From Bradyrhizobium sp. (GTDB lineage Bacteria > Pseudomonadota > Alphaproteobacteria > Rhizobiales > Xanthobacteraceae): a stretch of 64,000 nt of DNA. The notes under the pieces were generated by a model. That model was given only the letters and a program-made list of their open reading frames with translations, ran no database searches and was not told the DNA's origin. This document shows positions 6,518-26,161 of this stretch, piece by piece (within the stretch, counting starts at the first letter, position 1; the number at the start of each line of letters is the position of its first letter). The translations under genes and the position numbers were made by a program. The stretch is from NCBI GenBank assembly GCA_028290305.1, contig JAQGKC010000161.1, forward strand, positions 20,593 to 84,592, read 5' to 3'.

Positions 6518-6576
6518 GATGCTTACCTTTTTGGTTAGAGCTTGGAACTGCTTGTGGGGACTGGACCGCGAAGCCC

Positions 6577-10631: not shown

Positions 10632-10832
10632 TTAATAGTACCGCTCTTGGACGTAGGGCGTCCTCGTAACTCTTGCAGTCTTCGCGGAAATCCACGTGAC
10701 GCCGCGCTCGATGCAACGCGACCATACGGGTGTACATGCAGGTATCAGAACGCGAGGTGGGAAAAGCACCTGCGTCCCGCTTATCGCGTGAAGATCGCCG
10801 TCGCGCAATGTTGCAGAAGCAGAATATGCCAA
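10632..10832 (-). CDS. Possible small protein of unknown function
   Basis: A 66-aa frame in the divergent intergenic region, ending TPYVQERYY. It contains two cysteines but no membrane segment or known motif. Its only support is a hairpin with T-run about 50 bases after the stop, which implies a minus-strand transcript ending there. No clear ribosome binding site was seen. It may be real, a decayed gene or chance; low confidence. Confidence 0.25.
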   Translation of the reverse strand: MAYSASATLRDGDLHAISGTQVLFPPRVLIPACTPVWSRCIERGVTWISAKTARVTRTPYVQERYY

Positions 10833-10881
10833 TTAGCATCCACCCTTGCTCATGAATTCCTTTTGGGCTTAAGGAGGTGGA

Positions 10882-11742
10882 ATGCCTTACGTTCAGGCGC
10901 TTGACGGCACTCAACTTTATTACGAAGAGACCGGGACCGGAAGCGCCGTCATTTTCGTCCATGAATTCGCCGGCGACCACCGGACTTGGGAGCCGCAGCT
11001 CAGATTTTTCTCGCGCTCGCATCGATGCATCACGTTCAGTCAGCGCGGCTATCCGCCATCTGATATTCCGGAAGATCCAGCGCGCTATAGCCAGAACATC
11101 GCGCGTGACGATATTGCTGCCGTTCTCGATGGATTGGGAATCGAGCAGGCTCATGTCGTCGGTCATTCGATGGGTGGCTACACCGCGCTGCATTTCGGCA
11201 TCCACGCGCCACAACGCTGCATCTCGGTGGTGGCCGCTGGATGCGGCTGGGGTTCTCTCCCGGATGCCGAACGTTCCGAGGCGATGAAGCGGCAGGCCGC
11301 CGAGACCGGCAAGATGTTTGCCGAAGAAGGTATTACGTCGGCGGCGGCGAAATATGCCGACGCGCCGATGCGTCAGGCCCATAAGAATAAGGACCCGCGC
11401 GGTTGGTCCGAATTCGCACGCATGCTCGGCGAGCATTCCGCGGTGGGCCATTCGCTCACCATGTTCGGTGTGCAACTCAAGCGCCCAACCCTTGGGGAAA
11501 TGGAAGCCGAACTGAAGCGCTTCACGCCGCCCTTGCTTGTGATTGTCGGCGACGAAGACGAACCGTGTCTTGAAGGCAGCTTCTTTCTGAAACGCACGGC
11601 ACCGACCGCGGCTCTCCTGGTCATTCCTCGCACCGGCCACAACGTCACCAGCGAAGAACCGGACGCATTCAATGCCGCGCTGGCCGAGTTGTTTTTCGCG
11701 GCGGAATCAGGCCGCTGGCTCGCGCACAAGAAGGCCACCTAG
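10882..11742 (+). CDS. Alpha/beta hydrolase
   Basis: A 286-aa soluble alpha/beta hydrolase. The triad is visible: nucleophile Ser96 in GHSMGG, acid in VGDEDEP (about residue 230) and His in TGHNV (about 254), with the oxyanion-region motif VHEFAGDHRTWE near 26-37. The start is marked by a near-perfect Shine-Dalgarno, AAGGAGG, four bases before the ATG, so it should be well translated. It is the first gene of the catabolic run and ends 13 bases before the deaminase-like gene. It could hydrolyse an ester, lactone or ring-cleavage product of the imported compound. Confidence 0.82.
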   Translation: MPYVQALDGTQLYYEETGTGSAVIFVHEFAGDHRTWEPQLRFFSRSHRCITFSQRGYPPSDIPEDPARYSQNIARDDIAAVLDGLGIEQAHVVGHSMGGYTALHFGIHAPQRCISVVAAGCGWGSLPDAERSEAMKRQAAETGKMFAEEGITSAAAKYADAPMRQAHKNKDPRGWSEFARMLGEHSAVGHSLTMFGVQLKRPTLGEMEAELKRFTPPLLVIVGDEDEPCLEGSFFLKRTAPTAALLVIPRTGHNVTSEEPDAFNAALAELFFAAESGRWLAHKKAT

Positions 11743-11755
11743 CCGTGCGGAATCG

Positions 11756-13092
11756 ATGAAAACCTGGATTCGCGATCCGATCGCAATGCTGGCGGAAGGA
11801 GGCAAGCGCGGGCTTGTCGTCGAGAATGGCAAGATCATCGAACTTGTCGGGCAGGATGGCCCGGCAACACCCTGCGACGAGATTTTCGATGCCCGGCGGC
11901 ACGTCATCATCCCAGGCCTTGTCAACGCTCATCATCATTTTTTCCAGACGCTGACGCGCGCGCATCCGCAGGCCATCAACAAGGACCTGTTTCCATGGCT
12001 GAAGCAGCTTTATCCGATCTGGGGCGCAGGTCTTGATCGCAATAGCTTCCGTCTCGCCGTACGCGTCGCGCTGACCGAACTGCTGATCTCCGGCTGCAGT
12101 ACCGCCTCGGATCACTTGTTCGTCTTTCCGGACGATATGGCCGACGCCGTTGACATCGAGGCCGAAGAAGCTTCGAAACTGGGAATGCGCATCACGCTGA
12201 CGCGTGGTGCCATCAATCTCGGCTTTACGGACGGTGGCATTGCCGACGAACGATTGATCCAGGACTACGACACGGTCATCTCCGACTGCGAACGGGTTCT
12301 CGCCAAATATCACGATCCGAGCGAAGGCTCTTTCCTGCGCGTCGCCTTGGCCCCGTGCGCTCCTTTCAACGTCACCAAGCAACTCATGATCGATACGGCT
12401 GGTCTCGCCGAGCGGCATAATTGCCTGCTTCATACCTGGGAGAAACCCGCGACGAGGATGCTTATTGTCTTCATCACTTTGGCTGTCGACCACTCGACTA
12501 CCTCGAAGAAGTGGGTTGGCTGAATGAACGCGTCTGGCTGGCGCACGGCATCCACTTCAACGATGCGGAGATCGCGCGTCTCGGCAAGCATGGGATGGGA
12601 ATTTGCCACTGTCCGACATCGAACATGGTGCTGTCGTCGGGCATCTGTCGGACCAAGGATCTGGAGGCGGCCGGCGTGACAGTTGGCCTTGGCGTCGACG
12701 GCTCCGCCTCGAACGATAGTTCGAACCTGATGGAGTCGGTCCGACACGCCTTTCTGCTGGGGCGTCTAGCCTACGGCGCATCCTCGATCACTCATCTGGA
12801 TGCTTTTCGGTGGGCGACCGAAGGATCCGCCAAGTGTCTCGGACGCCGTGATATCGGCAGAATAGAAGTTGGGCGCCAGGCGGACCTCGCCTGCTTCACC
12901 TTGGACGAATTGCGGTTTTCCGGAGCGGGTGATCCGATTGCCGCGCTCGTGCTTTGCGGTGCGCACCAGGCCGACCGGGTGATGATCGGCGGCGAATGGC
13001 GCGTTACCGATGGCGTGCCGGTTGGGATGGATCTAGCGCGGCTGCGTTTCGAACATGGCCGAGCAGCTTCCGCGTTCATGACAAGCATATAG
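11756..13092 (+). pseudogene. 8-oxoguanine deaminase-like amidohydrolase, frameshifted
   Basis: Two overlapping frames together encode one ATZ/TRZ-family amidohydrolase of about 445 residues. The first frame (from ATG 11756) carries the HxH metal motif in GLVNAHHHFFQTLTR and runs through LPWLKQLYPIW-type sequence typical of 8-oxoguanine deaminases. The second resumes at GETRDEDAYCLHHFG near 12440 and carries WLAHGIHF, CHCPTSN and the Asp of LGVDGSASND. At about 12434 the expected His-Thr-His-Leu-x-Glu motif reads CAT ACC TG: four bases are missing relative to an intact reading, which shifts the frame and removes the second, metal-binding His. The product would be inactive unless this is a sequence error. 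Confidence 0.8.
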
Positions 13093-13336
13093 GTCAGTTG
13101 CCAAATCTGGCGCGTAAACGGTCGATGGTATGCAATTGCACAATTTTCGTATCTTTGTGCTCAATCGCTGATCACACCATCGGATCCGACCCGAAAAAGT
13201 CAGTGAAGCCGACGACCACCCTGCTCAACGGATCGGCTTGACCACCAATCTTCCCCAACCATACTGTTCATGACAATTCCGGCTGCAATGGGTAAATGCC
13301 TGGCGTCGGATTCCAGCACGTTTTGCGGAGTCCTCC

Positions 13337-14821
13337 ATGGCCAAAGACGGAAATGCCTACCTTTCAAGTCTGCGCGACAATCGCTCTATCTACATCGACG
13401 GACGCAAGGTCGTTGATGTTACGAGCGACAGTTGCTTTCGGGGCGTAGTCGGCACTGCCGCCACCCTTTACGATTATCAGGCTGCGCCCGAAAACCTCGA
13501 ACAGATGACGTTCCAATCGCCGACCAGCGGCGAGCGGGTCAATTTGGCCTGGCAGCTTCCAAAGACCTATGGAGACCTGGTCAGGCGCCGTCAGGCCATT
13601 GAAAAATGGTCGACGCTTTCATGCGGCATGATCGGCCGATCGCCAGACCACGTCGCGTCCACGCTGGCGGGCTTCCGGATGGGAATCGCGGCCTTTCGCG
13701 ATTACGACCCGGCCCGCGCGGCCGCCCTGGAATCCTATTTTCAATACGCCCGGGATAACGACCTTTTCCTGTCCTACGTCATCATCAACCCGCAATCCGA
13801 CAAAGCCAAATCAGCAGGCGGGCAACCCGATCCGCATCTTGTGGCGTCCGTCGTTGACGAAGATTCAGGGGGGATAACCATTCGTGGCGCGAAAATGCTG
13901 GCCACCAGCGGCGTCATGGCGAACGAACTGCTGGTTTCGGGCTTCCAGGCATTGCAGGCCGGAGACGAAGCCTACGCTTTCACGGCCGTCGTTCCGCTGG
14001 GCGCCAAGGGCCTCACCTTGATGTCCAGGCGCAGCTACGAACAAAACGCGACATCGACGTTCGATTACCCGCTTTCGTCCAGGTTCGATGAGAACGACGC
14101 TGTCGTCCACTTCAACGATGTCAAGATCCCCTGGGACCGTGTCTTCGTCTTCAAGGACCTGAGGATGGCGCATGCGCAGTGGCACGATACCAGAGCCCAT
14201 GTTTTTCAGAACTATCAGTGCATCGTCCGCCTGATGGTGAAGCTGAGGTTCATGCTCGGGCTGGCGCGTAAAATCGCCGAGACCAACAACATCATCAACT
14301 ATCCTCAGGTGCGGGAGACCTTGGGACTGATGGCCGCGAAGGTCAGCAACATCGAAGCGCTCGTGATCGCGATGGAGCTCAAGGGCGAGAACTTCGGGGA
14401 ATTCTATGTACCAGATCGGGCTATGCTTTGCGCAGCTCAGGTCATCGCCCAGACGACCTATCCCGAGATCGCCGAAGCGATCCGCTCGCTTTCAGGCGGC
14501 GGCATGATCATGGTCCCGTCATCCTACGCCGATTTCGCAACCCCGGAAACCAACGCCATCATTCACAAGACGCAGCGGTCGCCGATTGCGACGTCGGAAC
14601 AGCGCGTCAAGCTGATGAAGCTCGCATGGGACGCCGTCGGCTCCGAATTCGGCTCGCGTCACCTGCAATATGAAATGTTCTACTCAGGCGCTCCTTTCGT
14701 GACGCGCGGAAATTCCTTCCGGTTTTTCGATTGGGATGACGTAAAGGGCGCCGTCGACCAGTTCATGGGCTCTTACGGGTTGCCTGAGGGACATCTGAAG
14801 CTCCCCGACGCCGCTGAGTAG
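13337..14821 (+). CDS. HpaB-type flavin-dependent hydroxylase (4-hydroxyphenylacetate 3-monooxygenase family)
   Basis: A 494-aa protein of the HpaB/pyoverdin-chromophore hydroxylase family (acyl-CoA-dehydrogenase-like fold). These enzymes use FADH2 from a separate reductase to hydroxylate aromatic or heteroaromatic rings. Family features are the N-terminal YIDGRKVVDVT and F-RGVVG blocks (about 18-40), the central LVASVVDEDSGGITIRGAKMLATSG region (about 175-200) and the C-terminal SGG-MIMVPSS, RSPIATSEQRVKLMKLAWD blocks. The length is typical. It sits between the broken deaminase and the amidase gene (8-base gap). No HpaC-type flavin reductase is visible nearby, so a reductase would have to come from elsewhere. 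Confidence 0.85.
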   Translation: MAKDGNAYLSSLRDNRSIYIDGRKVVDVTSDSCFRGVVGTAATLYDYQAAPENLEQMTFQSPTSGERVNLAWQLPKTYGDLVRRRQAIEKWSTLSCGMIGRSPDHVASTLAGFRMGIAAFRDYDPARAAALESYFQYARDNDLFLSYVIINPQSDKAKSAGGQPDPHLVASVVDEDSGGITIRGAKMLATSGVMANELLVSGFQALQAGDEAYAFTAVVPLGAKGLTLMSRRSYEQNATSTFDYPLSSRFDENDAVVHFNDVKIPWDRVFVFKDLRMAHAQWHDTRAHVFQNYQCIVRLMVKLRFMLGLARKIAETNNIINYPQVRETLGLMAAKVSNIEALVIAMELKGENFGEFYVPDRAMLCAAQVIAQTTYPEIAEAIRSLSGGGMIMVPSSYADFATPETNAIIHKTQRSPIATSEQRVKLMKLAWDAVGSEFGSRHLQYEMFYSGAPFVTRGNSFRFFDWDDVKGAVDQFMGSYGLPEGHLKLPDAAE

Positions 14822-14829
14822 TTGCAACC

Positions 14830-16023
14830 ATGTACAGTGTGGAAGAAATCAGGCGCCTCGCATTCGTCGAGCACGGTCCGTCCTCGCTAAGACTGATGAA
14901 GGATGGACCGCTGGTGGACCTGTCATTTGCGGCGAAGGACCTTATCGATATTGCGGGATACAAGTCCGCCTGGGGCAACCCGGACCGGTTGCGCGATGCC
15001 GATCCCGCCGTGACGACCGCGCCCGCCGCGCTGGTACCGTTGGTGGCTGGCGCACATCTCATCGGAAAGACGCATACGGACGAGATCGCCTGCGGAATGT
15101 TCGGAATGAATCCGCATTTCGGCACGCCGATCAATCCCAAGGCCCCGACCCGCGTTCCCGGCGGATCTTCGAGCGGTTCTGCCTCCGCCGTGGCGGCAAA
15201 CTTTTGCGACTTCGCACTCGGCACCGATACCGGCGGGTCGATCCGCGTCCCCGCGAGTTTTTGCGGGCTCTATGGCTTGCGCACCACATATGGCCGCTTG
15301 TCAGTGGCGGGAATCATGGCGATGGCGCCGAGCTTCGACGCCGTCGGCTGGCTCGCGCGCGACGCGACGACGTTGAAGCGCGTCGGCGAAATCTATTTCG
15401 GTCCGATCGGAGAATTCAGGTCTGTACGATTGATGCTCGCCCGCGATGCGTTCGATATCCCCGTGCGCCATATCGGCGAGGCGCTTTTGCCGGTCGCGAG
15501 ATCGCTCGGAAGCATGACCGAGCTGACCTTGTTTGCAGAAGGCGTCGAATACTGGCTGGAGACATTCAGGCCGCTGCAGCTCTACGATCTCTGGTCGACG
15601 CTCGGCGCCTGGGGCAAGGTGCCCGGGCGGACGCTCAGCCCAGCCGTGGCGGAAAGAATCGAACTCTCGTCACACGTCGACTCCACAAAATTCGCGAGCG
15701 CTGTCATCAGACGCGAATCCCTGACGGACCGGCTGGCGACGCTGCTCGGCAGCGACGGCGTATTGGTCCTTCCGACCGCGCACGATCTCCCGCCGCTTCG
15801 CGATGCGCCGGTGTCCGCGCAGATCGAGTTCAGGGAAAAGACACTCGCTCTCACCTGTGTAGCGAGCCTGTGTCGGTTGCCGCAGATCAACATCCCGGCC
15901 GTTATCGTCGACGGCTGCCCCGTTGGCCTGTCGTTCATCGCCGGCCCGCGGGGAGATCAACTGCTACTGGATCTCGCTGAAAAGATCGGAAATGCCTTGC
16001 CTGTGGCGTCGCTCGCAAGATGA
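14830..16023 (+). CDS. Amidase (amidase signature family)
   Basis: A 397-aa amidase-signature enzyme that hydrolyses a carboxylic amide to acid and ammonia. The Ser-cisSer-Lys triad is visible: Lys36 in SFAAKDLI, the cis-Ser in GGSSSGSA (about 111-118) and nucleophile Ser137 in GTDTGGSIRVPAS. It is at the short end of the family, close to AtzF/indoleacetamide-hydrolase-like members. It starts 8 bases after the HpaB-like gene and its stop overlaps the next start (ATGA at 16020-16023), so the two genes are tightly coupled. In context it could release ammonia from a ring-opened amide. Confidence 0.88.
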   Translation: MYSVEEIRRLAFVEHGPSSLRLMKDGPLVDLSFAAKDLIDIAGYKSAWGNPDRLRDADPAVTTAPAALVPLVAGAHLIGKTHTDEIACGMFGMNPHFGTPINPKAPTRVPGGSSSGSASAVAANFCDFALGTDTGGSIRVPASFCGLYGLRTTYGRLSVAGIMAMAPSFDAVGWLARDATTLKRVGEIYFGPIGEFRSVRLMLARDAFDIPVRHIGEALLPVARSLGSMTELTLFAEGVEYWLETFRPLQLYDLWSTLGAWGKVPGRTLSPAVAERIELSSHVDSTKFASAVIRRESLTDRLATLLGSDGVLVLPTAHDLPPLRDAPVSAQIEFREKTLALTCVASLCRLPQINIPAVIVDGCPVGLSFIAGPRGDQLLLDLAEKIGNALPVASLAR

Positions 16024-16937
16024 AGGCCAATAACGATCGCGATTTCATCGGCTACGGCAGCACGCCGCCAAATCCGCGGTGGCCGAACGGTGCGCGCCTG
16101 GCGCTGGTGGTCGTGCTCAATGTCGAAGAAGGTGCGGAGCCGTCCATTCCCGATGGCGACAATGCCACGGAAACCGCCCTCACCGATGGTATTCAACAAG
16201 AAGTGCCCGCAGGCACCCGTGATTTCGTCGCGGAGTCACTGTTCGAATATGGCTCGCGAGTAGGCTTCTGGCGGATCATCAACCTGATGAGGGAACGCGC
16301 TATACCGGTCACGGTCAATGCGTGCGCCCAAGCAGTTTTGCGCAATCCTCAGATCGCGGAAGCGATCAAGCAGTATGATTTCGACCTTTGTTGTCACGGC
16401 GACCGTTTCGTCCGGCATTTTTTGATGGCCGAAGACGAAGAGCGAAAAATCATAGCCCGTTCCGTTGCCGGCCTCGAACGGGCGATCGGACGCCGGCCGC
16501 TCGGCTGGCAGAGCCGCTACTCCCCCAGCCGAAACACCCGCGCGCTGCTCGTCGAACACAGCGGCTTCCTCTACGATTCGGACAGCTACGCCGACGACTG
16601 GCCTTATTGGGTGAAAGTCGGCGGGCGCCCGCATCTCATCATTCCCCACAGTTTCACCAACAACGACAACCGGCTGGCTACCGCAAAACTCGGTACCGCG
16701 AACGATTTCTATAATCACTTGGCATCGGCGCTGCGCGTGCTTTACGCGGAAGGCGCACGCCACCCGCGCATGATGACGGTCAGCCTGCACAGCCGCGTTT
16801 CGGGCCAGCCTGCGCGGTTCGAGGCCGTCATGAGGTTTCTCGATTTCGCTGCGACGCATGAAGGAATCTGGTTCGCCAGCCGCTCAGACATTGCCCGTCA
16901 TTGGATCGATACCCACCCCGCGGAGCAATATCGATGA
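16020..16937 (+). CDS. PuuE-like polysaccharide deacetylase / allantoinase family hydrolase
   Basis: A 305-aa NodB-fold metalloenzyme closest in motif to the PuuE-type allantoinases: LNVEEGAEPSIPDGD near residue 34, the ESLFEYGSRVGFWRI block near 70-84, HGDRF near 127 and the YSPSRNTRALLVEHSGFLYDSDSYADDWPYW block near 165-195. Allantoinase PuuE opens a cyclic ureide ring, so a cyclic amide or ureide substrate is a reasonable guess. The usual HG-W/Y-R motif reads HGDRF here, a small departure in the active-site loop. Start and stop both overlap the neighbours as ATGA. Confidence 0.82.
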   Translation: MKANNDRDFIGYGSTPPNPRWPNGARLALVVVLNVEEGAEPSIPDGDNATETALTDGIQQEVPAGTRDFVAESLFEYGSRVGFWRIINLMRERAIPVTVNACAQAVLRNPQIAEAIKQYDFDLCCHGDRFVRHFLMAEDEERKIIARSVAGLERAIGRRPLGWQSRYSPSRNTRALLVEHSGFLYDSDSYADDWPYWVKVGGRPHLIIPHSFTNNDNRLATAKLGTANDFYNHLASALRVLYAEGARHPRMMTVSLHSRVSGQPARFEAVMRFLDFAATHEGIWFASRSDIARHWIDTHPAEQYR

Positions 16938-18439
16938 AGGCCAATGAAGGTCTGCTCCTGACCGGTGGGCTTGTCCTCGATCCCCAGTCAGGAAAGGCCG
17001 ATCTCAAGGACCTGCTGATCGAAGACGGCAAGATCGCCGAGATCGGTGCGCCCGGCTCGTTGGCTGCCACCACCGCCAAGCAGCACGACGCCTGCGATCG
17101 CCTGATCATTCCCGGTCTCGTGAACGCCCACACCCATGGCCATGCCAATCTCATGAAGGGCGTTGCCGAAGCGTGGACCCTCGAGGCTTCCCTGACAAAT
17201 GGACCATGGCTCGCCGGGCCGAGAGATCCCGAAACGATCTATCTGTCCACGTTGCTCGGTGCGATCGACATGCTGTCGAAGGGCTGCACCGCCTGCTTTG
17301 ACCTCGTCTACGAATTTCCACGGCCGACCAAAGAAGGTTTTCTAGCCGCAGCGAGAGCTTATGCCGATGCCGGCATGCGCGCTGTGCTTGCACCGATGGT
17401 CGCCGATCAAAGTCTTTTTAAGTCAATTCCGGGATTGGCCGACGCGTTACCCGAAGATTTGCGCCATTCAGTTGCCAACTTCGACTTGGCAAGCGGAGAG
17501 CAGACCATTGCCGCCGTGGAAGCGATTGTGGCCGCACGAACGGAAATGCCGGATTCCGTAACGATCGCCATCGCACCCACGATTCCGCATCACTGTTCCG
17601 AGCGCTTCCTGAGGGATTGCATGGACATCGCGGATCGGCATGAACTTCCCATCCACATGCATATCGCGGAATCCCGGCTGCAGGCTGTCGTCGCCCGGAA
17701 GATCTATGGCCGCTCCGCGGCGCGCTATCTGGCCGATCTCGGCATGCTCCGGCCGCGCTTCACCGCAGCACATTGCGTGTGGACCGACGAGCACGATCTC
17801 GACCTGCTCGCCGAACATGGCTGCTCCATTGCCCACATCCCCGCCAGCAATTTCAGGCTTGGATCCGGCGTTGCGTATGTCCGGCCCATGCTGGAGCGGG
17901 ACATCAATGTGGGCCTGGCAACCGACGGCGCCAATTCCTCGGATTCACTCAGCATGTTGCAGGCGATGCGGCTGGCATCCTTTGGCGCACGGATATTCAC
18001 TGGCTCGCGTGACGGCTGGCTGCACGCAACCGAGATCGTCAGGCTCGCGACACAGGGCGGCGCGAAACTTCTGGGACTCGAATCATGCGGTCGAATAGAG
18101 CAAGGCGCTTGCGCCGACCTCGCGTTATTCGACCTTGGCCACATCGATTTCGTCCCCGGCACCGATCCTGTCAATCAATTGGTGACATCAGCCGATTCGG
18201 CATCGGTGACCGACGTGATGGTTGGCGGCATGTTCAGGGTACTCAACCGGAAGATCATTTCAGTCGATCTGACCGACCTGCGCCGCCGCGTCCACGAGAG
18301 CGTCGCAAGGCTTTCCGCAGCGACCAGCCAGTCCCGGGCCCTGGCAGGCCGGCTTGAACCGCACGTCGTCGCCTTTGCCCAATCGATGTCGCGTGAGCCG
18401 CTTTCGATCGAACGCCGCATCCAGCCGGAGATTGGGTAA
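16934..18439 (+). CDS. Amidohydrolase, ATZ/TRZ (SAH/MTA deaminase-like) family
   Basis: A 501-aa metal-dependent amidohydrolase. All key residues are visible: the HxH of GLVNAHTHGHANLMKG (about 66-81), the HMHIAES motif (about 238-244), the third His in TAAHCVW, and the catalytic Asp in LATDGANSSDSL. Family members deaminate or dechlorinate N-heterocycles (adenosine derivatives, triazines, guanine-like bases). The start at ATG 16934 is set by the ATGA overlap with the preceding stop. Unlike the related gene at 11756 it is intact, so it could supply the deaminase activity of this cluster. About 60 extra C-terminal residues beyond the usual 440-450 have no clear motif. Confidence 0.86.
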   Translation: MKANEGLLLTGGLVLDPQSGKADLKDLLIEDGKIAEIGAPGSLAATTAKQHDACDRLIIPGLVNAHTHGHANLMKGVAEAWTLEASLTNGPWLAGPRDPETIYLSTLLGAIDMLSKGCTACFDLVYEFPRPTKEGFLAAARAYADAGMRAVLAPMVADQSLFKSIPGLADALPEDLRHSVANFDLASGEQTIAAVEAIVAARTEMPDSVTIAIAPTIPHHCSERFLRDCMDIADRHELPIHMHIAESRLQAVVARKIYGRSAARYLADLGMLRPRFTAAHCVWTDEHDLDLLAEHGCSIAHIPASNFRLGSGVAYVRPMLERDINVGLATDGANSSDSLSMLQAMRLASFGARIFTGSRDGWLHATEIVRLATQGGAKLLGLESCGRIEQGACADLALFDLGHIDFVPGTDPVNQLVTSADSASVTDVMVGGMFRVLNRKIISVDLTDLRRRVHESVARLSAATSQSRALAGRLEPHVVAFAQSMSREPLSIERRIQPEIG

Positions 18440-18443
18440 TCTC

Positions 18444-19901
18444 ATGGTTGCAGCGGAAGAAACAAATTCCGATCTCGCCGAGTTGGAACGGCGCGTTCGT
18501 TTTGAACTGGACTGCCTCGGATACCCGGCCCGGCCGTGGATAATTCCCGGCAGCCGAAACGGCACGGCCGTACATGACGTCATTATCGTCGGCGGCGGCC
18601 AGAGTGGAACATCGATAGCGTTCAGGCTGTTACGCGAGCGAATAACAAATCTGCGCGTGCTCGACCGGAATCCGGCAGGCCTTGAAGGACCGTGGCTGAC
18701 CTTCGCCCGCATGCATACGCTGCGCACGCCAAAGATCGTGACAGGACCGGATCTAGATATTCCCAGCCTGTCGGCCCGCGCCTGGTGGCAGGCGCGTTTC
18801 GGTGAACAATCGTGGGAAGGATTGAACAAGATGCCGCGCGAGTTGTGGCAGGCCTATCTTGTGTGGGTCCGCAAGACGGCCGGCATCAACGTCAGCAACG
18901 AGGCCGAGGTCACCGACATCGAACCGCTGGATGACGGCCTGCTCGCGATCCACGCGAGAATCGGCGGCGTCACACAGAAACTGCTTGCCCGCAAGGTCGT
19001 GCTTGCGACGGGCATCGAAGGATCCGGCCGCTGGTTCGTACCGGCCGCGATTACAGATGCCCTGCCCCGAAAATGCTACGCTCACACCTCCGAGCCAATC
19101 GATTTTCCCTTGCTGGCAGGAAAGACGGTCGCCGTGGTGGGCGCCGGAGCCTCTGCCTTCGACAATGCCGCGATGGCGCTCGAAAGCGGAGCGGCGTCGG
19201 TCGAACTCTTCGTCCGCAGGAAGCAGCTTCCAACCGTCAATCCGAACCGGTGGATGGAGTTTGCCGGATTTCTTCGCCATTTCGGCGATCTGGACGACGA
19301 ACGAAAATGGCGCTTCATGAAGATCATTTTCGACATGAACCAGCCGCCTCCGCAGGAAACCTTCGACCGCTGCACCCGTCATGAAAATTTCTCCATGCGG
19401 CTCGGCTGTTCGCTTGAAGACGTTCGTTTCGAGAATGAAAAGATTCGGCTGCCCACGTCGGACGGCACGGAGGCGTTCGATTTTCTGATTGCGGGGACCG
19501 GATTTACCGTCGATCTCGCGGCGCGGCCTGAATTGGCGCGATTCCACGACAAGATCGCTTGCTGGTCCGATCGCTATCGTCCGCCGGCTGGTGAGGAACA
19601 TTCGCTGCTTGGCGGCTACCCTTATCTTTCTCCCAGTTTTCAGTTCACCGAAAAGTCCAAGGGATCAGCGCCGTTTCTGGCGAACATTTTCAGTTACACC
19701 TTTGCGGCCATGCCGAGCCTTGCCTGCTCGGCCGGTATCTCCGCGCTCAAATTCGGAGTTGACCGGATCGCCACTGGAATTAGCCGCGGGCTGTTCGTCG
19801 AAGATGCCGACGCCCATCTGCAATCGTTGCGCGACTACGATGAGCAGGAGCTTGATCCCATAATCACAAGAATTCCCGGGGGGGATGATCGGCCATGGTG
19901 A
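18444..19901 (+). CDS. FAD/NAD(P)-binding monooxygenase-like oxidoreductase
   Basis: A 485-aa two-dinucleotide-fold flavoprotein. FAD-binding VIIVGGGQSGTS lies near residue 46, LARKVVLATGIEG marks the ATG motif, and a second Rossmann motif AVVGAGASAFDNAA lies near residue 235 (NAD(P)H), followed by FLIAGTGFTVD. This arrangement is that of flavin-containing or Baeyer-Villiger-type monooxygenases. The start at ATG 18444, four bases after the amidohydrolase stop, is preferred; an in-frame upstream extension would overlap that gene. Its role is likely oxygenation of a pathway intermediate, though a dehydrogenase role cannot be excluded. Confidence 0.82.
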   Translation: MVAAEETNSDLAELERRVRFELDCLGYPARPWIIPGSRNGTAVHDVIIVGGGQSGTSIAFRLLRERITNLRVLDRNPAGLEGPWLTFARMHTLRTPKIVTGPDLDIPSLSARAWWQARFGEQSWEGLNKMPRELWQAYLVWVRKTAGINVSNEAEVTDIEPLDDGLLAIHARIGGVTQKLLARKVVLATGIEGSGRWFVPAAITDALPRKCYAHTSEPIDFPLLAGKTVAVVGAGASAFDNAAMALESGAASVELFVRRKQLPTVNPNRWMEFAGFLRHFGDLDDERKWRFMKIIFDMNQPPPQETFDRCTRHENFSMRLGCSLEDVRFENEKIRLPTSDGTEAFDFLIAGTGFTVDLAARPELARFHDKIACWSDRYRPPAGEEHSLLGGYPYLSPSFQFTEKSKGSAPFLANIFSYTFAAMPSLACSAGISALKFGVDRIATGISRGLFVEDADAHLQSLRDYDEQELDPIITRIPGGDDRPW

Positions 19902-20957
19902 CCGTTGAAGATCGATCCAAGCGAGTCCTCGAATCGGCGCTCAAGATCGAGAGCCCGTTTCAGCTCGACGAGACATTGTGCCTCTATAGTCCGCAGGACA
20001 ATGTCGACTCGCTTGGGCATCCGCGCATAGCCGAGTGGCTGGACTTCATTCAGAACGAATACGAGCCCGAGCTTCCCGAGGCCGAACGTCGCGTGCTGCT
20101 GTTCATGCCTTGCACCAAGACCAAGCCCTATCCTTTTTCCTCCGAGCATATGGCGATCAATCAGCGGCTGCTAGACGAAGGATACCGGCCATCCGGCCGC
20201 TCGTACCTGCCTCAGGAATTGCAGGCACGGCTCGAACCGCCATTTTCGCCCGAGGTTCTGAACTTATCGCCGCTCATCGACAACAGCGGGACGGTTCTGC
20301 ACCGCATGGTCATTTCGGAACCGATGGCCGTCGTGCCTTATGAGCATATCGCCGAATTCCGCGGAAAGCCTTCTCCGGCGGTCGCATATGACGATCCTGG
20401 GCTTTTCGAGAACAGGGGGAATGCAGTGTCTCCCTGGAGACCGGACTCGCATGACAGCGACGCGCTGGAAGTGGGGCGATGAAGAGCGCCGGCAATATGT
20501 CGCCATGCATAATGAGATGGCGCGCATATTGGCGAACCTCGTCTCCCGGATCGGGCGAAACTATACCGACGTGATTTCCTGGGTTGCCCCGGGCCTCACC
20601 CATCGAAGTTTCGTGCTGGCACGGGACGAGCGCGCTTTTCATCACGTTTCCACGTCGCGGAAGGTGGGCGCCAAGCGGCTAGAGCTGATCGGCGCCAACG
20701 ATCACCTCTCTGCAGAACGCAGGATCGCCTGCCTTCCGGTGCCTGACGACTGCAAGACCGCGATTGCGCGTCTTTCGCATCGCCTCAAGATCGATATTCC
20801 CCGGGCAACAGCCATCTACGCGCGCGGAGGCGCCAATGCTACTCCCCTCGCCTTGCCAGAACTGCTGGATGTTCTGATGAAACGACTGGCCCACAACCAC
20901 CTCAGTGTCGAAGGAACGAAAAGTCATGCCCGCGTTGCCGCTCAAAATAGGCGTTAG
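19895..20957 (+). pseudogene. DUF5591-like protein split by a frameshift
   Basis: Two frames that look like halves of one protein of about 350 residues. The first (19895-20482, 195 aa) contains RRVLLFMPCTKTKPYPF, resembling the conserved PC-x-x-KPY motif of the DUF5591 domain found in archaeosine-synthase-type proteins. It goes on to a conserved-looking YDDPGLFENRG, after which it becomes nonsense and stops. The second, in the +1 register, carries RWKWGDEERRQYVAMHNEM and DVISWVAPGL, which read as the natural continuation. The switch must fall near 20445-20460. An ATG at 20451 could instead start a separate 168-aa protein, so two coupled genes cannot be fully excluded. It overlaps both neighbouring genes. 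Confidence 0.6.
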
Positions 20958-21903
20958 CGATTCCGACCGGACCAGGCCGATCGCCAGTGGCGAGGTATCG
21001 ATCGAAGGGGTTGCCGCCGAGGTGACGCTGATGGGCGTACAGGCGCTGTTCAACCAGCAACTGACCGAGCACACTTTCGACTGCTGCGAATTCCCGCTCT
21101 CATCCTATCTGAGATCCCTGGAACGTCCGGAAAGACCGTATGTCGCCGTGCCGGTATTTCCTTCACGGCATTTCCGGCTCTCCGACGTTTTCGTCAATGC
21201 GGCGAAGGGAATAAAGAAACCTGCTGACCTCGCCGGCAAACGCATCGGCGTTCCCGTATTCGACATGGCTGCGGCGGTCTGGCTTCGCGGCATCTTTCAG
21301 GATCATTTCGATCTGGCGCGCACCGCGCCGATTTATGTCGCGGGAGGATTGGAGGCTGCCCGCACTGGAGACGAGCATCCGCAGTTCTATCCCGACCGCT
21401 TCAAACACGAGCAGAGAAACGACAGGAGTCTGGCCGTTCTGCTGGCGGAGGGTGAAATCGATGCGTTGTACACGGCGCGAGCGCCCAGCACCTGGCCCTC
21501 GGCGTCGGTGAGCCGCTTGTTCGACGATCCGATGCAGACAGAGCTCGATTATTTTTCGAAGACCGGGATATTTCCGCCGATGCATGTCATTGCGGTCAAA
21601 CGGACACTCGCCGAATCCAACCCTGGTCTGATGATAGCCATCTTCCATGCCTTTGCGCAGGCCCAGAAAATCGCCCGCGAAAGGCTGTTCGATTCAGCCG
21701 CGCTGTGCACGATATTGCCGTGGCAGCTCGAAAACCTGCTTTTGACGGAGCAGCGGCTTGGCAATGATTACTGGCCGGCGGGGCTTGCGAAGAACCGCGC
21801 GATGCTGAAGGTCGTCACCCGCTACATGGTCGAGGATGGTCTGATCGCGACCGAATTTTCGCCCGAGGAATTGTTTTCCGACGCCGACATCTTGAAAACG
21901 TAG
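20926..21903 (+). CDS. 4,5-dihydroxyphthalate decarboxylase-like / NMT1-like protein
   Basis: A 325-aa protein of the periplasmic-binding-protein type-2 fold that includes Pht5-like decarboxylases. Markers are the N-terminal LKIGVSDSDRTRPIASGEV, DCCEFPLSSYLRS, VPVFPSRHFRLSDVFVN, the PADLAGKRIGVPVFD motif and YTARAPS. It has no signal peptide, which fits an enzyme-like member rather than a secreted binding protein. The start at ATG 20926 is favoured by GAAGGA about ten bases upstream; an in-frame GTG lies at 20905. It is the last gene of the plus-strand run and overlaps the broken DUF5591-like gene. Decarboxylation of a ring acid is the family-based guess. Confidence 0.78.
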   Translation: MPALPLKIGVSDSDRTRPIASGEVSIEGVAAEVTLMGVQALFNQQLTEHTFDCCEFPLSSYLRSLERPERPYVAVPVFPSRHFRLSDVFVNAAKGIKKPADLAGKRIGVPVFDMAAAVWLRGIFQDHFDLARTAPIYVAGGLEAARTGDEHPQFYPDRFKHEQRNDRSLAVLLAEGEIDALYTARAPSTWPSASVSRLFDDPMQTELDYFSKTGIFPPMHVIAVKRTLAESNPGLMIAIFHAFAQAQKIARERLFDSAALCTILPWQLENLLLTEQRLGNDYWPAGLAKNRAMLKVVTRYMVEDGLIATEFSPEELFSDADILKT

Positions 21904-22251
21904 GAAGAGTTTCGTCGCGATATTATTCCCAGAAGAAACGCAGGCAGCCCGTCATCGCCAGAGAAGCCACCACCGCGAAAACCGCGCGGGCGGCATTGGC
22001 TTCAACGGCTTCAAAGAGGTGTTCAATTGTTCGTCGCATACAAATGCCTCGAAGGTTTTAGCTGCGCGTGCGTTACTCCGGAATTCGCACCTTGGTCAGT
22101 CCCGAGCTACTGAAACAATGCTGAGACATGCCGGGAAGTTCCGGTTCTCTATTGGTGGCCGGTGAGCCTCCGTTTCGGGAAGTTTGGCGCATAAATATTG
22201 CTCAATGGTTGATGACCATCCAGGGAGATGCGCGTGAGCGCCATTCCTGTA
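21904..22251. other. Gap between convergent genes
   Basis: A stretch of 348 bases between the end of the catabolic run and the end of the MFS remnant. It holds one short minus-strand frame with a ribosome binding site (listed separately) and otherwise nothing recognised. Confidence 0.4.
21923..22039 (-). CDS. Possible 38-aa single-span membrane peptide
   Basis: A short frame starting at ATG 22039 with GAGG about nine bases upstream and ending at TAA 21923. The peptide is MRRTIEHLFEAVEANAARA followed by a hydrophobic run (VFAVVASLAMTGCLRFFW). The Lys/Arg-poor amphipathic start and one membrane-length segment suggest a small membrane peptide. No family is recognised and the support is only the ribosome binding site and composition. 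Confidence 0.4.
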   Translation of the reverse strand: MRRTIEHLFEAVEANAARAVFAVVASLAMTGCLRFFWE

Positions 22252-23042
22252 TCAAGTGACCGCAGGAAATCTCGCGCCTCGCTCCCGCACGAACAGCATG
22301 CAGAGCGCGCCCAGCAACGGACCGGCAGCCAAAGTGACAAATGCCATATAGAATGAGTTGGTGGCCTGAAATGCCAGACCGACCACAATCGGCACGATGA
22401 CGCTGCCCAATTGCCAGAAAGCTGCGGTGATACCTGTCGCGGCCCCGGCGCGCTGCAGGCCCACCGTCTCCGTGACCATCGCTCCCATCAGCGGGCTGTA
22501 AACGAACGCCGTGACACCAAGAATTGGCGCCGCAAATCGAAATTGCAGTTCAGTCGACAGCAGACCGAACAACAACAGCATGGCTCCGAATGCGGCCAGG
22601 CAAATGATGATCGGGATCTTGCGAACGCCGCCGAACCAGTCAGACAGCAGGCCGACGAGCGGCTTGCCGGCGATCGCGCCCGCTCCGACGAGCGCCACGA
22701 TAAAACCAGCGTTGACGGGCGACAGTCCGTGACCACGGATCATCAGGGCGTTCGCCCAGAAGGCAAAGCCCCAGGTCCCCCAGAACGCGCCAAAGCCAGC
22801 CAGCGCGAGAAAGATGAGATCGCGTTTCTTCAGGAGAATCGCCAGATCGGGCTTTGTCGTGATCATGACCGGTTCGCCGTCGGGTTTATCGCGCAGCAGA
22901 ACGTAACTCAAAATCCCGATCAGGATCGTAACCGACCCCAGGATCTGATAAACGGCATTCCATGAAATCGTCTGCAAGATCGTTGGAACGATCGCACGTT
23001 CGACTCGGCAGCCTCTAGGCTGGTCCTCTGGGAAACGTCCAT
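22252..23042 (-). pseudogene. MFS transporter with internal deletion
   Basis: The 3' two thirds encode the C-terminal half of a major facilitator transporter (IVPTILQTISWNAVYQIL onward, about seven hydrophobic segments, with the GLLSDWFGGVRK loop typical of MFS). The first half is missing. Just upstream a strong ribosome binding site, GAGGAGGAG, precedes ATG 23042 and the peptide MDVSQRTSLEAAESNVR, a typical cytoplasmic N-terminus for anion:cation symporter-type MFS proteins. That frame then breaks near 22990. The simplest reading is that about 150 residues (helices 1-5) were lost in a deletion that also shifted the frame. The gene probably served import in the adjacent catabolic cluster. Confidence 0.75.
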
Positions 23043-23136
23043 CGAAACTCCTCCTCAACTATCTGAACTTGCGATCTTCTGGCGAGCCGCTTAATGAAAG
23101 TGCCGTCGTCGCATGACGAGGCAGACGACGATGCGG

Positions 23137-24492
23137 TTACATGTCGGTCCCCAAATAGACGCCGTTATGCGTGAGAGTCCTCTGAAGCGCGCCGACATCG
23201 ACATCCCGGCACGCACCGTTGCTCTGGACGACCATTGCTGCAGCGGTCCCGGCAGCTTCGCCCATGACGAAACAGGCCCCGGAAACGCGGGCGGCGGATT
23301 GTCCGCGGTGAGTCATTGACGCACAGCGGCCGACCACGAACAGGTTGTCGACCTGCTTCGGCAGCAGCATTCGGAACGGCAGATGATTGAAGCCACGGCT
23401 TCCCGGAATGTCGGGCCAGCGGAAAATGATGTCGCCGGCGACATGATCCTCGATCGGCCAGCCGTTGACGCCGATGGTGTCAGGGAAGCTCGCGCATTGC
23501 AGAACATCGTCTTCGCTCAACTGATAGTCGCCGAAGATTCGGCGGGTTTCGCGAATGCCCAGTTGCGGCGGCAGATCGACGACATAAGCATTAGCGAAAG
23601 CCGGCACGTTCTGCTTGAGAAACTCAAACGTATCGCGGACCTGCCGGCGTCCCTCGATCTCGCCATAGGTAAGCTGGTCGGCATCGGTGCCGTCGACCGC
23701 GCTGCCATCGCTGTTGCCGACCTGGGTAATGTTGGCGCGCCATTCGATCCCGTGCTTTTGCGGGCGAACGATGGGCGTCTGGCGCGGAAATTTTCGCCCA
23801 GTGTCACGCGTCGCGGCCTGCATCATGCCGGCGATCGGCTCCCACGCCCTCGCCGCTTCCGCCTCCCGGTCGACATCATTGATGCGGAACATGGTCGAGG
23901 GAAACATCATCGAACCGGCGCCGTCACCGAGTTCGTAAGGCGCGCCGGCCCATGCGGCGAGATCGCCGTCGCCGGAACCGTCGATGAAGACGCGGCCGCG
24001 CACCGCACGCCGGCCGGATTTGGTTTCGATGAAAAGTGTATCGATCTGCCGCGTTGCACTCATCAATACACCTGCGCCGAGACTGTGAAACAGGATCTTC
24101 ACCCCGGCGTCGAGCAACAATTGATCGGCCGCGAACTTGTAGGCCGCAGTGTCGTAGGCCTGGGCCTGGATTTTGCCGAAAACGGTGTGAGGCTCCTTAA
24201 GGCCGTCGAGACGCGCGATGCCGTCGAGCAGATCGTCCGCGATCCCATGCACGACCCGATCGATGCGGCCGAAACGGTTGGCATGCAGGCCGCAGAAATT
24301 GGTCACCCCCGCGGCGGTCCCCATGCCGCCGAGGAAACCATAACGTTCGATCAGCAGCGTCGTAGCGCCCGACCGTCCGGCGGCCACCGCGGCAGCGATG
24401 CCGGCAGGTCCGCCGCCGAGCACGACGACATCGAACGTGCCGTAAAGTTCGGTGCGGCGCGCAGGCTCGGCGACGGTTTCAATGCCACTCAT
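23137..24492 (-). CDS. FAD-dependent oxidoreductase
   Basis: A 451-aa flavoprotein of the FAD_oxidored (PF12831-like) type. The FAD-binding VVVLGGGPAGIAAAVAAGRSG lies near residue 21 and the E of LLIERYGFLGGMGTAAG follows. FIDGSGDGDLAAWAG and a C-terminal LFVVGRCASMTHRGQSAARVSG close the FAD site. The frame is open far upstream; ATG 24492 is chosen because the family N-terminus starts there. It follows a sister flavoprotein gene at 24528 with a 35-base gap, so the two are co-transcribed under the divergent IclR-type regulator. Confidence 0.82.
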   Translation of the reverse strand: MSGIETVAEPARRTELYGTFDVVVLGGGPAGIAAAVAAGRSGATTLLIERYGFLGGMGTAAGVTNFCGLHANRFGRIDRVVHGIADDLLDGIARLDGLKEPHTVFGKIQAQAYDTAAYKFAADQLLLDAGVKILFHSLGAGVLMSATRQIDTLFIETKSGRRAVRGRVFIDGSGDGDLAAWAGAPYELGDGAGSMMFPSTMFRINDVDREAEAARAWEPIAGMMQAATRDTGRKFPRQTPIVRPQKHGIEWRANITQVGNSDGSAVDGTDADQLTYGEIEGRRQVRDTFEFLKQNVPAFANAYVVDLPPQLGIRETRRIFGDYQLSEDDVLQCASFPDTIGVNGWPIEDHVAGDIIFRWPDIPGSRGFNHLPFRMLLPKQVDNLFVVGRCASMTHRGQSAARVSGACFVMGEAAGTAAAMVVQSNGACRDVDVGALQRTLTHNGVYLGTDM

Positions 24493-24527
24493 GGATAGGT
24501 CTCCGTAAGGCGGAAAAGACAAAAAAA

Positions 24528-25967
24528 TCAGACCGCCGACGCCGGTACGCCCTGCCGGCGGCTTTCGCCGGCCGACGACGCCGCGCGGGCGAGGCAGGCT
24601 TCCCGGGTCGTAAGCGCTCCGTCGGCATCGAGCAGGCTTCTTACACTGGCGGCAGGAATGCTGTGCACGGCATTGGCGTGGCTGATGGCGACAAGCGCCA
24701 TCGAACCCGCCGCCTGACCGAGCGCCATCGCCGTCGCCATATGGCGCGCGCCACCGTTCGCGGCGCGCGTGGCCGAGATGGCGCGACCCGTGACGATCAG
24801 GCCTTCCACACCGGCAGGCACGAGACACCGCATCGGAATCTCGAACGGCGCGGGCGGCATGAACAGTTGGATTCCCGTTCCCTGCGCGTCGTGGATATCC
24901 ATCGGCCCGCAGCCGAGCGCGATGCTGTCGGGAAATATGACGCCTGACAGAATGTCCTGTTCGGTCAGCGTATAATCGCCGACGATCCGGCGGGTTTCGC
25001 GCACACCAATCCGGGGGGCGATCGAGGCCAGCACGGCGTTTTCGAAGCCCGGCACATCGCGCTTCAGGAATCCGACGATGCATTTAACCTGCTGACGCCC
25101 GATCCTCTCCGCGGCAGATGCCTGGCAGGGATCGAGCGGATCGATGTTCAGAATGCGGCTCATCAGGCAGATCGCATCAACGCCGCCCGGCGTGCTCATG
25201 AACGACAAGCTTTCCCAGAAGATCTCGCCTCGCCGCACGCCCTCGAGTGCAAGAGCCCGTTTCTGGTCCCGCGGGATCGAGCGAAACCGGGCCACGTCTA
25301 TGTTCGAAAGCCGGAATACCAGGCTCTGCGGTTGCCGGCCACCATGATGGGTTTCGTCGTCCGGACCTTTCATCGTCACGCCGGCCAGAAAAGACGGCGT
25401 GGCATCGCCGCTGGCATCGACGACGACGCGCGCGCGATAGGCACGCCGCCCGGCCACGTCCTCCACGATCAAGCCGCTGACGCGATCGTCGTCCTTCAAG
25501 ACACCGACGACATTGCTGTGAAGAGCCACGTCAACGCCGGCTTCGTCCGCCCATTCGTCCGCGACCCACTTCACTACCTCGGGATTGAACGGGAAGTTAT
25601 GGATTTGAACGGGATTGGCCGAGGCCTCCGCAAGCATATAATTGGCGAAGCCGTCACTACCGCCGGCAGCGACGATGCGCTGCGTGAATTCGAACGGCAG
25701 ACCCCACACCGCCTGAATGCCGTGGTTGAAGAAGCCGATATACTGGGCGACATACCCTGTCGTCGCGGTGCCGCCGAGGCATCCCTGCCGTTCGAGCAAA
25801 AGAGTTTTCGCGCCACGCCGCGCAGCGGTGACCGCAGCAACCAGACCCGCGGCGCCGCCGCCCGCAACGATCACGTCGTAGTCCGCGGCGACGGCAGTAT
25901 TCAATTGCTCGGCAATACGACCGTTCGCCTCGTCGGCGGCGGCCAAATGTCTGCCATCGCTAGCCAT
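24528..25967 (-). CDS. FAD-dependent oxidoreductase, paralogue of the next gene
   Basis: A 479-aa protein of the same family as its downstream neighbour. It has VIVAGGGAAGLVAAVTAARRG near residue 33, LLLERQGCLGGTATTG, VVDASGDATPSFLAG, IGVRETRRIVGDYTLTEQDIL and LIVTGRAISATRAANGG. The two proteins share the IGxRETRRIxGDYxLxExD block, showing common ancestry or duplication. ATG 25967 is chosen because AGGGAG lies about nine bases upstream and earlier in-frame sequence is unlike the family. It heads the two-gene unit divergent from the IclR regulator. Substrate unknown; oxidation of a small organic acid or N-heterocycle is plausible. Confidence 0.82.
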   Translation of the reverse strand: MASDGRHLAAADEANGRIAEQLNTAVAADYDVIVAGGGAAGLVAAVTAARRGAKTLLLERQGCLGGTATTGYVAQYIGFFNHGIQAVWGLPFEFTQRIVAAGGSDGFANYMLAEASANPVQIHNFPFNPEVVKWVADEWADEAGVDVALHSNVVGVLKDDDRVSGLIVEDVAGRRAYRARVVVDASGDATPSFLAGVTMKGPDDETHHGGRQPQSLVFRLSNIDVARFRSIPRDQKRALALEGVRRGEIFWESLSFMSTPGGVDAICLMSRILNIDPLDPCQASAAERIGRQQVKCIVGFLKRDVPGFENAVLASIAPRIGVRETRRIVGDYTLTEQDILSGVIFPDSIALGCGPMDIHDAQGTGIQLFMPPAPFEIPMRCLVPAGVEGLIVTGRAISATRAANGGARHMATAMALGQAAGSMALVAISHANAVHSIPAASVRSLLDADGALTTREACLARAASSAGESRRQGVPASAV

Positions 25968-26060
25968 CGAGATAACTCCCTGAGTTTTCTTCGGGTTTCC
26001 TGGCCTTGCCCGCACAAGCGGCACGGTCGGCTGAAACTCAATTTTTGATTTGTGCACTCT

Positions 26061-26076
26061 ATGCACGTTAGTGCAT
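26061..26076. promoter_or_regulatory. Palindromic operator candidate for the IclR-type regulator
   Basis: ATGCAC-GTTA-GTGCAT is a perfect 6-bp inverted repeat with a 4-base spacer. Related half-sites flank it (TGTGCAC at 26051 and ATGTACA at 26080). It lies in the 194-base divergent gap between the flavoprotein pair and the regulator gene. IclR-family regulators bind short palindromes in such divergent promoters, so this is a likely control site for both directions. Confidence 0.55.
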
Positions 26077-26161
26077 TAGATGTACATTGACGCCATCGGG
26101 CTTGTCAAATGAAGATCGCGGGCCCATTCCGGTCGTCCGGACAGCGTACCCGCATACGGTC

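Follow-up and report, generated by a model that had tools for sequence, protein, structure and literature searches.

Parts of several described catabolic pathways come together in a block of genes at positions 13337 to 21903 of a 64,000-nucleotide stretch of Bradyrhizobium sp. DNA (NCBI GenBank assembly GCA_028290305.1, contig JAQGKC010000161.1, positions 20,593 to 84,592; the whole stretch is called the window below). With the atrazine/cyanuric acid pathway of Pseudomonas sp. ADP (AtzB, AtzE, AtzT) the locus has in common an AtzT-like binding protein, an amidohydrolase of the 8-oxoguanine-deaminase class and an amidase-signature hydrolase, as well as a divergent importer operon (layout of the Atz genes as given in PMC6834077). 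Unlike that pathway, the block encodes an HpaB-type hydroxylase, a flavoprotein monooxygenase (FMO), a Pht5-like decarboxylase, a PuuE-like hydrolase and a member of the family DUF5591, and no cyanuric acid hydrolase was identified in it by Pfam or NCBIfam. Urate/allantoin catabolism shares a hydrolase of the PuuE fold and a deaminase whose product would be urate, but the PuuE-like protein of the block stays under the allantoinase cut-off and the hydroxylases, the decarboxylase and DUF5591 are additional. The phthalate pathway shares a homologue of Pht5, the 4,5-dihydroxyphthalate decarboxylase (E 3.9e-57), whereas Pfam and NCBIfam identified no further gene of that pathway in the block. Lumichrome catabolism in Nocardioides is described as following a like logic, hydrolytic removal of the pyrimidine ring and then decarboxylation and oxidation of the heterocycle, but with a thiamine pyrophosphate-dependent decarboxylase, a P450 and xanthine-oxidase-like enzymes where the block has Pht5, HpaB and FMO; riboflavin/lumichrome catabolism was rejected as an explanation on account of this different enzyme set (PMC12746152).

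The block is an N-heterocycle catabolic cluster with a gene set that matches no pathway known to us, and we are highly confident that it represents an undescribed, conserved catabolic module. This is what a sequence-only reading of the DNA had proposed, and the proposal gained support from the recurrence of the gene set in at least three alphaproteobacterial orders and from the absence of such a pathway among the papers listed by our literature searches. Judged by titles and abstract beginnings, the listed matches contained no description of this gene set, in a collection that leaves preprints and most subscription journals outside its coverage; the word DUF5591 occurred in no paper of that collection, and no described route of 7-deazaguanine breakdown was among the matches listed. 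The window genes were identified from open reading frames (ORFs) and by Pfam, NCBIfam and PDB sequence searches, which recovered the previously proposed gene order:

13337-14821, plus strand: HpaB-type flavin-dependent aromatic hydroxylase, oxygenase component (PF11794 and PF03241)
14830-16023, plus strand: amidase-signature hydrolase (PF01425; NF006169 410 bits, above its cut-off of 391)
16020-16937, plus strand: PuuE allantoinase-like hydrolase, candidate ring opener (TIGR03212 and PDB 3cl6)
16934-18439, plus strand: ATZ/TRZ-type amidohydrolase (8-oxoguanine-deaminase/MTA-deaminase class; PF01979)
18444-19901, plus strand: single-component flavoprotein monooxygenase-like protein, FMO (PF13454/PF13738/PF13434)
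19895-20957, plus strand: DUF5591 (archaeosine-synthase-like) gene in two frames (PF17884; ORFs 19895-20482 and 20340-20957)
20926-21903, plus strand: Pht5-like (4,5-dihydroxyphthalate decarboxylase-like) protein (PDB 9jp7)

From HpaB to the Pht5-like gene, neighbouring genes overlap or are separated by at most 8 bp. Family names should be read with care here. The window HpaB, 62-90% identical to its orthologues in other copies of the cluster, missed both NCBIfam HpaB models (320 bits for HpaB-1, cut-off 480; 257 bits, cut-off 885), and the PuuE-like protein reached 328 bits with TIGR03212, below the allantoinase cut-off of 425, despite a close match to the solved PuuE 3cl6 (E 1.5e-83). Because of these scores, neither 4-hydroxyphenylacetate hydroxylase nor allantoinase function should be assigned to them. 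The ATZ/TRZ-type protein reached no NCBIfam cut-off among the matches listed, and the FMO found no match in a PDB sequence search at E 0.001. For the Pht5-like protein, Pfam gave only a sub-threshold NMT1 match; residues 8-326 of its 332-residue ORF match 9jp7, a solved 4,5-dihydroxyphthalate decarboxylase, at E 3.9e-57, a similarity of overall sequence with the catalytic residues uncompared.

The evidence for a module comes from other genomes. Conserved synteny elsewhere had been set beforehand as the check on the proposal, and a lack of co-occurrence as its refutation. Scanning GTDB contigs with a DUF5591 alignment gave 125 stretches that matched two peptide patterns, 46 of which encode a relative; members without both patterns escape this set. 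L-numbers denote the resulting DUF5591 loci, or HpaB loci, from GTDB genome contigs, L011 being Bradyrhizobium sp. dw_78. By our own assignment of ranks from genome names, the 46 loci belong mostly to Hyphomicrobiales, Rhodobacterales and Acetobacteraceae, with some from Chloroflexi, Actinomycetota and bins. When a gene was scored as present at no less than 40% identity and 30% of the query, HpaB, amidase, FMO and Pht5 were all found in 31 of the 46, so the genes do co-occur elsewhere. Eleven loci have less than 8 kilobases (kb) on one side; for the 35 that extend 8 kb or more in both directions, the count is 28. The seven exceptions comprise an edge effect (L001, scored as lacking HpaB since the locus ends inside that gene; its genome has HpaB about 10 kb from DUF5591) and six loci without all four genes (L013, L031, L042, L043, L045 and L046). 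In every one of the 31 core loci the four genes lie on the DUF5591 strand, in nine different gene orders. The constant core thus consists of FMO, HpaB, amidase, DUF5591 and Pht5, while the purine-like genes vary: over the 46 loci PuuE was scored in 20 (it is cut by the locus end in L015 and L016), ATZ in 22 and the 8-oxoguanine deaminase in 15.

Whole-genome comparisons gave the same picture. Among 397 genomes of the order of Kaistia, DUF5591 occurs in seven, and these seven and no others have an HpaB of 77% identity or more, the next best match having 64%. In the order of Falsiroseomonas (299 genomes) DUF5591 occurs in six, and HpaB with at least 66% in those six plus one draft, in which a 4.3-kb contig carries FMO-HpaB-amidase and ends inside the amidase. 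Searching HpaB at E 1e-60 in nine genomes of module-less loci gave a match in one (the genome of L037, 53% identity), and six loci around distant HpaB homologues (55-64% identity to the window protein) had no match to DUF5591, FMO or Pht5 at E 1e-15. The co-occurrence of these genes is not due to chance. Distances between core genes correlated at r 0.76-0.93, which is compatible with joint inheritance but also follows from species kinship, and we give it little weight. Among named strains, the core cluster is carried by Kaistia dalseonensis and, on a plasmid, by Rhizobium sp. ACO-34A. In loci of the Falsiroseomonas/Roseomonas type (L022, L026-L029 and L032) it adjoins genes that by eye resemble dnaA and rpsT, perhaps beside a replication origin.

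The most informative member with respect to the substrate is DUF5591, which looks like a bacterial relative of a catalytic segment of archaeosine synthase, ArcS, an enzyme that works on the nitrile group of 7-cyano-7-deazaguanine (preQ0); the likeness is limited to a short stretch. Our alignment comprised 93 sequences (91 of 120 listed proteins and two from the loci), all of which matched PF17884 at E 0.01 and no other Pfam family, the best at 1.8e-9. Against the cut-off of 26 bits, the window piece scored 26.8 and the member P0005 30.9. Over 14 control genomes the PF17884 model found matches in three archaea only (M. jannaschii, H. volcanii and M. acetivorans). Six residues of the motif PC-x3-KPY-x2-S-x2-H are invariant in the 93 sequences, C73, K77, P78, Y79, S82 and H85; we take this motif, which was reportedly described by Phillips in 2010, to be the catalytic motif of ArcS. 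It is followed by a second one, SxPL-x-VPxE...YD-x-P, collinear with archaeal AF0587 (2q07); the two motifs are the features in common with ArcS. In a shuffle test of the second motif, 20,000 shuffles were made and 19,717 scored, and 9 of these did at least as well as the actual fragment; the fragment had been picked because it followed the first motif, which makes the result support rather than proof. Unlike ArcS, DUF5591 proteins are standalone, about 340 residues long, without a transglycosylase or PUA domain by Pfam, and encoded among catabolic genes. Archaeal ArcS was not among the matches listed for the search with the DUF5591 alignment (best 120 of 715). A tblastn search for phage relatives of the bacterial family, with P0005 at E 1 over 50,697 records, gave no match, and 50 kb of the HVTV-1 record, by its annotation and with no sequence search made, held no ArcS homologue. 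Thermococcus ArcS has been reported to transfer lysine to preQ0, in vitro also when this is presented as the mononucleotide (PMC11298593), and phage homologues of ArcS were considered possible catalysts of an amidohydrolase-type reaction (PMC6884629).

Further hints to the substrate came from the genes upstream of HpaB:

11756-13092, plus strand: 8-oxoguanine deaminase gene, frameshifted (ORF pieces; NF006055)
10882-11742, plus strand: alpha/beta hydrolase (PF00561)
8587-10167, minus strand: ABC importer ATPase, BMP/nucleobase type (PF00005)
7494-8600, minus strand: ABC importer permease (PF02653)
6577-7497, minus strand: ABC importer permease (PF02653 in ORF 6577-8214)
5426-6517, minus strand: BMP-family solute-binding protein, nearest solved relative AtzT (6pi5, E 6.9e-136, over 5426-6484)
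4320-5303, minus strand: 2-oxoglutarate/Fe(II) dioxygenase-like protein, possible cluster member (PF14226/PF03171)
3547-4299, minus strand: alpha/beta hydrolase (esterase), possible cluster member (PF12697)

The divergent nucleoside-type importer noticed earlier is indeed there, as a four-gene BMP-type ABC importer at 5426-10167, and its ATPase has 84-94% identity to those of L008, L011, L012, L017 and L021. AtzT is reported to have kept guanine through purification and to bind it at 110 nM (PMC6834077). We compared the residues of its guanine site (Tyr45, Ser97, Phe98, Glu165, Trp194, Asn218 and Asn220) with the window protein and all five cluster-linked orthologues: Ser97, Phe98, Trp194 and Asn218 are kept, Tyr45 is Trp, Glu165 is Ser and Asn220 is Asp, and the aromatic sandwich, formed here by Trp in place of Tyr45 and by Trp194, is retained. 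Two BMP paralogues in two of those genomes keep Glu165 and also have Asp at 220. These substitutions fit a putative ligand that is guanine-like but altered. The window copy of the 8-oxoguanine deaminase is split, and its intact orthologue (L011:1809-3149) scored 606 bits with NF006055, above the cut-off of 532. This gene lies between importer and HpaB in four of the five Bradyrhizobium-type relatives (L008, L011, L012 and L021) and on the opposite side of the cluster in L017. The alpha/beta hydrolase at 10882-11742 was found in two of the five (L011 and L021; not in L008, L012 or L017). The block as first delimited held its seven genes correctly but left out these two between importer and HpaB. 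The dioxygenase and the esterase may be members of the cluster, too: dioxygenase homologues lie near it in L001, L011, L012 and L017 (44-71%) and adjoin the importer in L066 (86%), and esterase homologues adjoin the dioxygenase in L012, L017 and L066.

Clustering of ORFs over the 46 loci and the window, with Pfam run on representatives, revealed further members of the cluster in some loci: a class III aminotransferase (11 sources), an HDAC-like amidohydrolase, an aldehyde dehydrogenase and an AraC regulator (10 each), an arylmalonate-decarboxylase-family protein, a second polysaccharide-deacetylase-like protein and CobW (8 each), a flavin reductase (6) and an asparaginase (4). The nearest solved relatives of the HDAC-like protein are deacetylases and amidohydrolases. 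Most of these members accompany the five core genes, PuuE, ATZ and the 8-oxoguanine deaminase on the plasmid of Rhizobium sp. ACO-34A (L073), where the HDAC-like gene matches in two pieces at 19265-20385, is unannotated and may be frameshifted. DUF5591 also occurs in loci without the oxidative genes, with various sets of BMP importers, ATZ-type amidohydrolases, the HDAC-like protein, a nitrilase-fold hydrolase, an isochorismatase-fold hydrolase and DUF1989. Away from the HpaB module it is found near BMP importers in L040, L041, L045 and L046; it adjoins a gene of the cytidine/deoxycytidylate-deaminase fold in L013 and genes of a xanthine-dehydrogenase-type molybdenum hydroxylase in L010, a 6-kb contig. 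In L031, L037 and L040-L046 its companions include, in various sets, the isochorismatase-fold hydrolase, DUF1989, AA_synth (PF06684), a class II aldolase and amidohydrolases, with no HpaB, FMO or Pht5 within the stretches compared, perhaps an alternative, non-oxidative route.

On the whole, we prefer, tentatively, to read the block as one copy of a conserved module that would break down a fused N-heterocycle resembling guanine. The most likely compound would be a 7-deazaguanine carrying a carbon substituent at C7, such as preQ0, the base of archaeosine, 7-carboxy- or 7-amido-7-deazaguanine, or a nucleoside related to these. What the sequences demonstrate, at the levels given above, is which genes are present, how they are linked and conserved, and to which families they belong; all of the chemistry and the order of the steps are inferred. 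Base or nucleoside would be taken up by the divergent BMP-type ABC importer. The conserved ArcS-type Cys of DUF5591 might then attack the C7 nitrile or amidine and yield an amide by addition of water or an amine, and the amidase would convert the amide to a carboxylate. The pair of 8-oxoguanine deaminase and ATZ protein could remove the 2-amino group and so help the PuuE-like hydrolase to open the pyrimidine ring, FMO and HpaB would hydroxylate the electron-rich pyrrole, and the product, a hydroxylated ring with two vicinal carboxylates, might lose one of them to the Pht5-like enzyme, in the way that Pht5 decarboxylates dihydroxyphthalate. Since N-acyl-lysines and N-acyl-polyamines are substrates of enzymes with the HDAC fold, which cleave them, we propose that the HDAC-like protein, the aminotransferase and the aldehyde dehydrogenase of some loci may recover and burn the amine used by DUF5591. 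The earlier guess of a modified purine or deazapurine is strengthened by the resemblance of DUF5591 to part of ArcS, by the guanine-binding nearest solved relative of the importer and by the deaminase orthologue above the 8-oxoguanine-deaminase cut-off.

A number of observations weigh against a 7-deazaguanine. The match between DUF5591 and ArcS spans only about 45 of 150 profile positions, the NCBIfam ArcS models, with cut-offs of 440 and 600 bits, gave about 25, and hhalign matched the ArcS-like protein of phage nt-1 weakly, in the motif region alone (probability 21%, E 0.001). PF17884 is insensitive in whole-genome scans, matching two of six known carrier genomes, one of them above the cut-off. 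The cluster-linked binding protein has lost Glu165, which contacts guanine in AtzT, importers differ between lineages, and the 31 core loci have PuuE in 19, ATZ in 20 and the 8-oxoguanine deaminase in 13 cases only. Importer and deaminases are equally compatible with other guanine-like bases; the deaminase and amidase families concerned also have members that act on triazines, pyrimidines and ordinary purines. Neither the window nor the seven loci scanned for them gave a preQ1 riboswitch or any other riboswitch at the gathering score (one tRNA was the only hit), and queuosine or transglycosylase genes were absent among the proteins scanned by Pfam, with no search aimed at them. Moreover, the Km of 433 uM leads the ArcS authors to judge that free nucleosides or nucleotides seldom receive lysine in cells (PMC11298593).

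These objections leave room for other substrates. A different guanine-like fused pyrimidine such as a pterin, a lumazine or an N2-modified guanine, with another reaction for DUF5591, is the least improbable of them, though we consider it unlikely. The subgroup of 8-oxoguanine deaminase and AtzB accepts guanine analogues, and AtzB homologues are reported to hydrolyse N2,N2-dimethylguanine (PMC13054789); the ATZ protein matches, among others, PDB 2paj, a putative cytosine/guanine deaminase, and the binding protein keeps the aromatic sandwich while changing the guanine-contacting Glu. All this would leave unexplained, however, why the ArcS-type motif is invariant in 93 aligned members. An ordinary purine route would turn 8-oxoguanine or guanine into urate, to be opened by an FMO resembling urate hydroxylase and an allantoinase-like PuuE, with the remaining genes incidental. 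The score of the deaminase and the PuuE similarity speak for it; yet the PuuE-like protein falls below the allantoinase cut-off, it is FMO, HpaB, amidase, DUF5591 and Pht5 that stay constant while the purine-like genes vary, and we know of no urate pathway that needs Pht5 or HpaB. We consider this route quite improbable. Hardly better placed is a pathway for a simple pyrrole, a hydroxypyridine or a cyclic imide, with importer and deaminases as accessories. HpaB relatives hydroxylate pyrrole-2-carboxylate and hydroxypyridines, and five of the six loci with distant HpaB homologues have a flavin reductase nearby; branched-chain-type importer genes lie close to the homologue in L060 and L064, the two examined for them, and L064 has an amidase. 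None of these six, though, has DUF5591, FMO or Pht5 by the search described above, and DUF5591 retains purine-type neighbours in several loci that lack HpaB. In L060, L061, L063 and L064 the distant homologues (57-59% to cluster members) adjoin the flavin reductase near ABC importer genes and appear to belong to a different pathway.

A separate question concerns the state of the window copy. Its DNA is about 84% identical to that of Bradyrhizobium sp. dw_78 across 10795-21947, but relative to this strain the 8-oxoguanine deaminase gene has a 4-base deletion near 12439 and the DUF5591 gene an 11-base deletion near 20448, both genes being intact in relatives. The DUF5591-like protein of the sequence-only reading was thus right as to family (PF17884) but does not occupy a single open frame, and broken genes had not been mentioned there. 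The C-terminal tail of the FMO departs from L011 past a 4-base insertion near 19870. Provided that the sequence is correct, the window copy is probably non-functional as written, given the frameshifts in the deaminase and DUF5591 genes. That the cluster in this genome is a decaying, inactive relic has a nearly even chance of being true: frameshifting deletions in two genes favor it, but the ratio of nonsynonymous to synonymous substitution rates (dN/dS) against L011 is 0.07-0.16 for the nine genes compared (0.16 for the FMO), and therefore the gene loss must be recent or the assembly wrong. Decay would in any case concern the window copy only and not the family.

Downstream of the cluster lies a half-length MFS transporter ORF (22252-23058, minus strand) that matches profile positions 142-347 of 347 only and is apparently truncated. 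At 23137-26941, two neighbouring FAD_oxidored (PF12831) genes and a divergently oriented IclR regulator may form a catabolic unit of their own.

Many bacteria and archaea synthesize 7-deazaguanines. Some phages are reported to do so as well (PMC6884629). It is possible, if rather doubtful, that the cluster encodes the first catabolic pathway for these compounds, in which a base or nucleoside that stems from deazapurine antibiotics, modified transfer RNA (tRNA) or the DNA of phages or bacteria would be imported, a standalone archaeosine-synthase relative would convert the C7 nitrile or amidine, both rings would be stripped and opened and, in some lineages, lysine or a polyamine recovered. If a standalone ArcS-like domain works in catabolism, a chemistry of archaeal tRNA modification would have found a place in the small-molecule metabolism of bacteria. 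Proteins that currently carry a hypothetical or mistaken label would also gain a role: in the ACO-34A record, the stretch between HpaB and the 8-oxoguanine deaminase, both included, has 11 genes, of which 8 are called 'hypothetical protein' and the PuuE-like one 'chitin deacetylase'. The idea can be tested in named strains with the core cluster, Kaistia dalseonensis and Rhizobium sp. ACO-34A.

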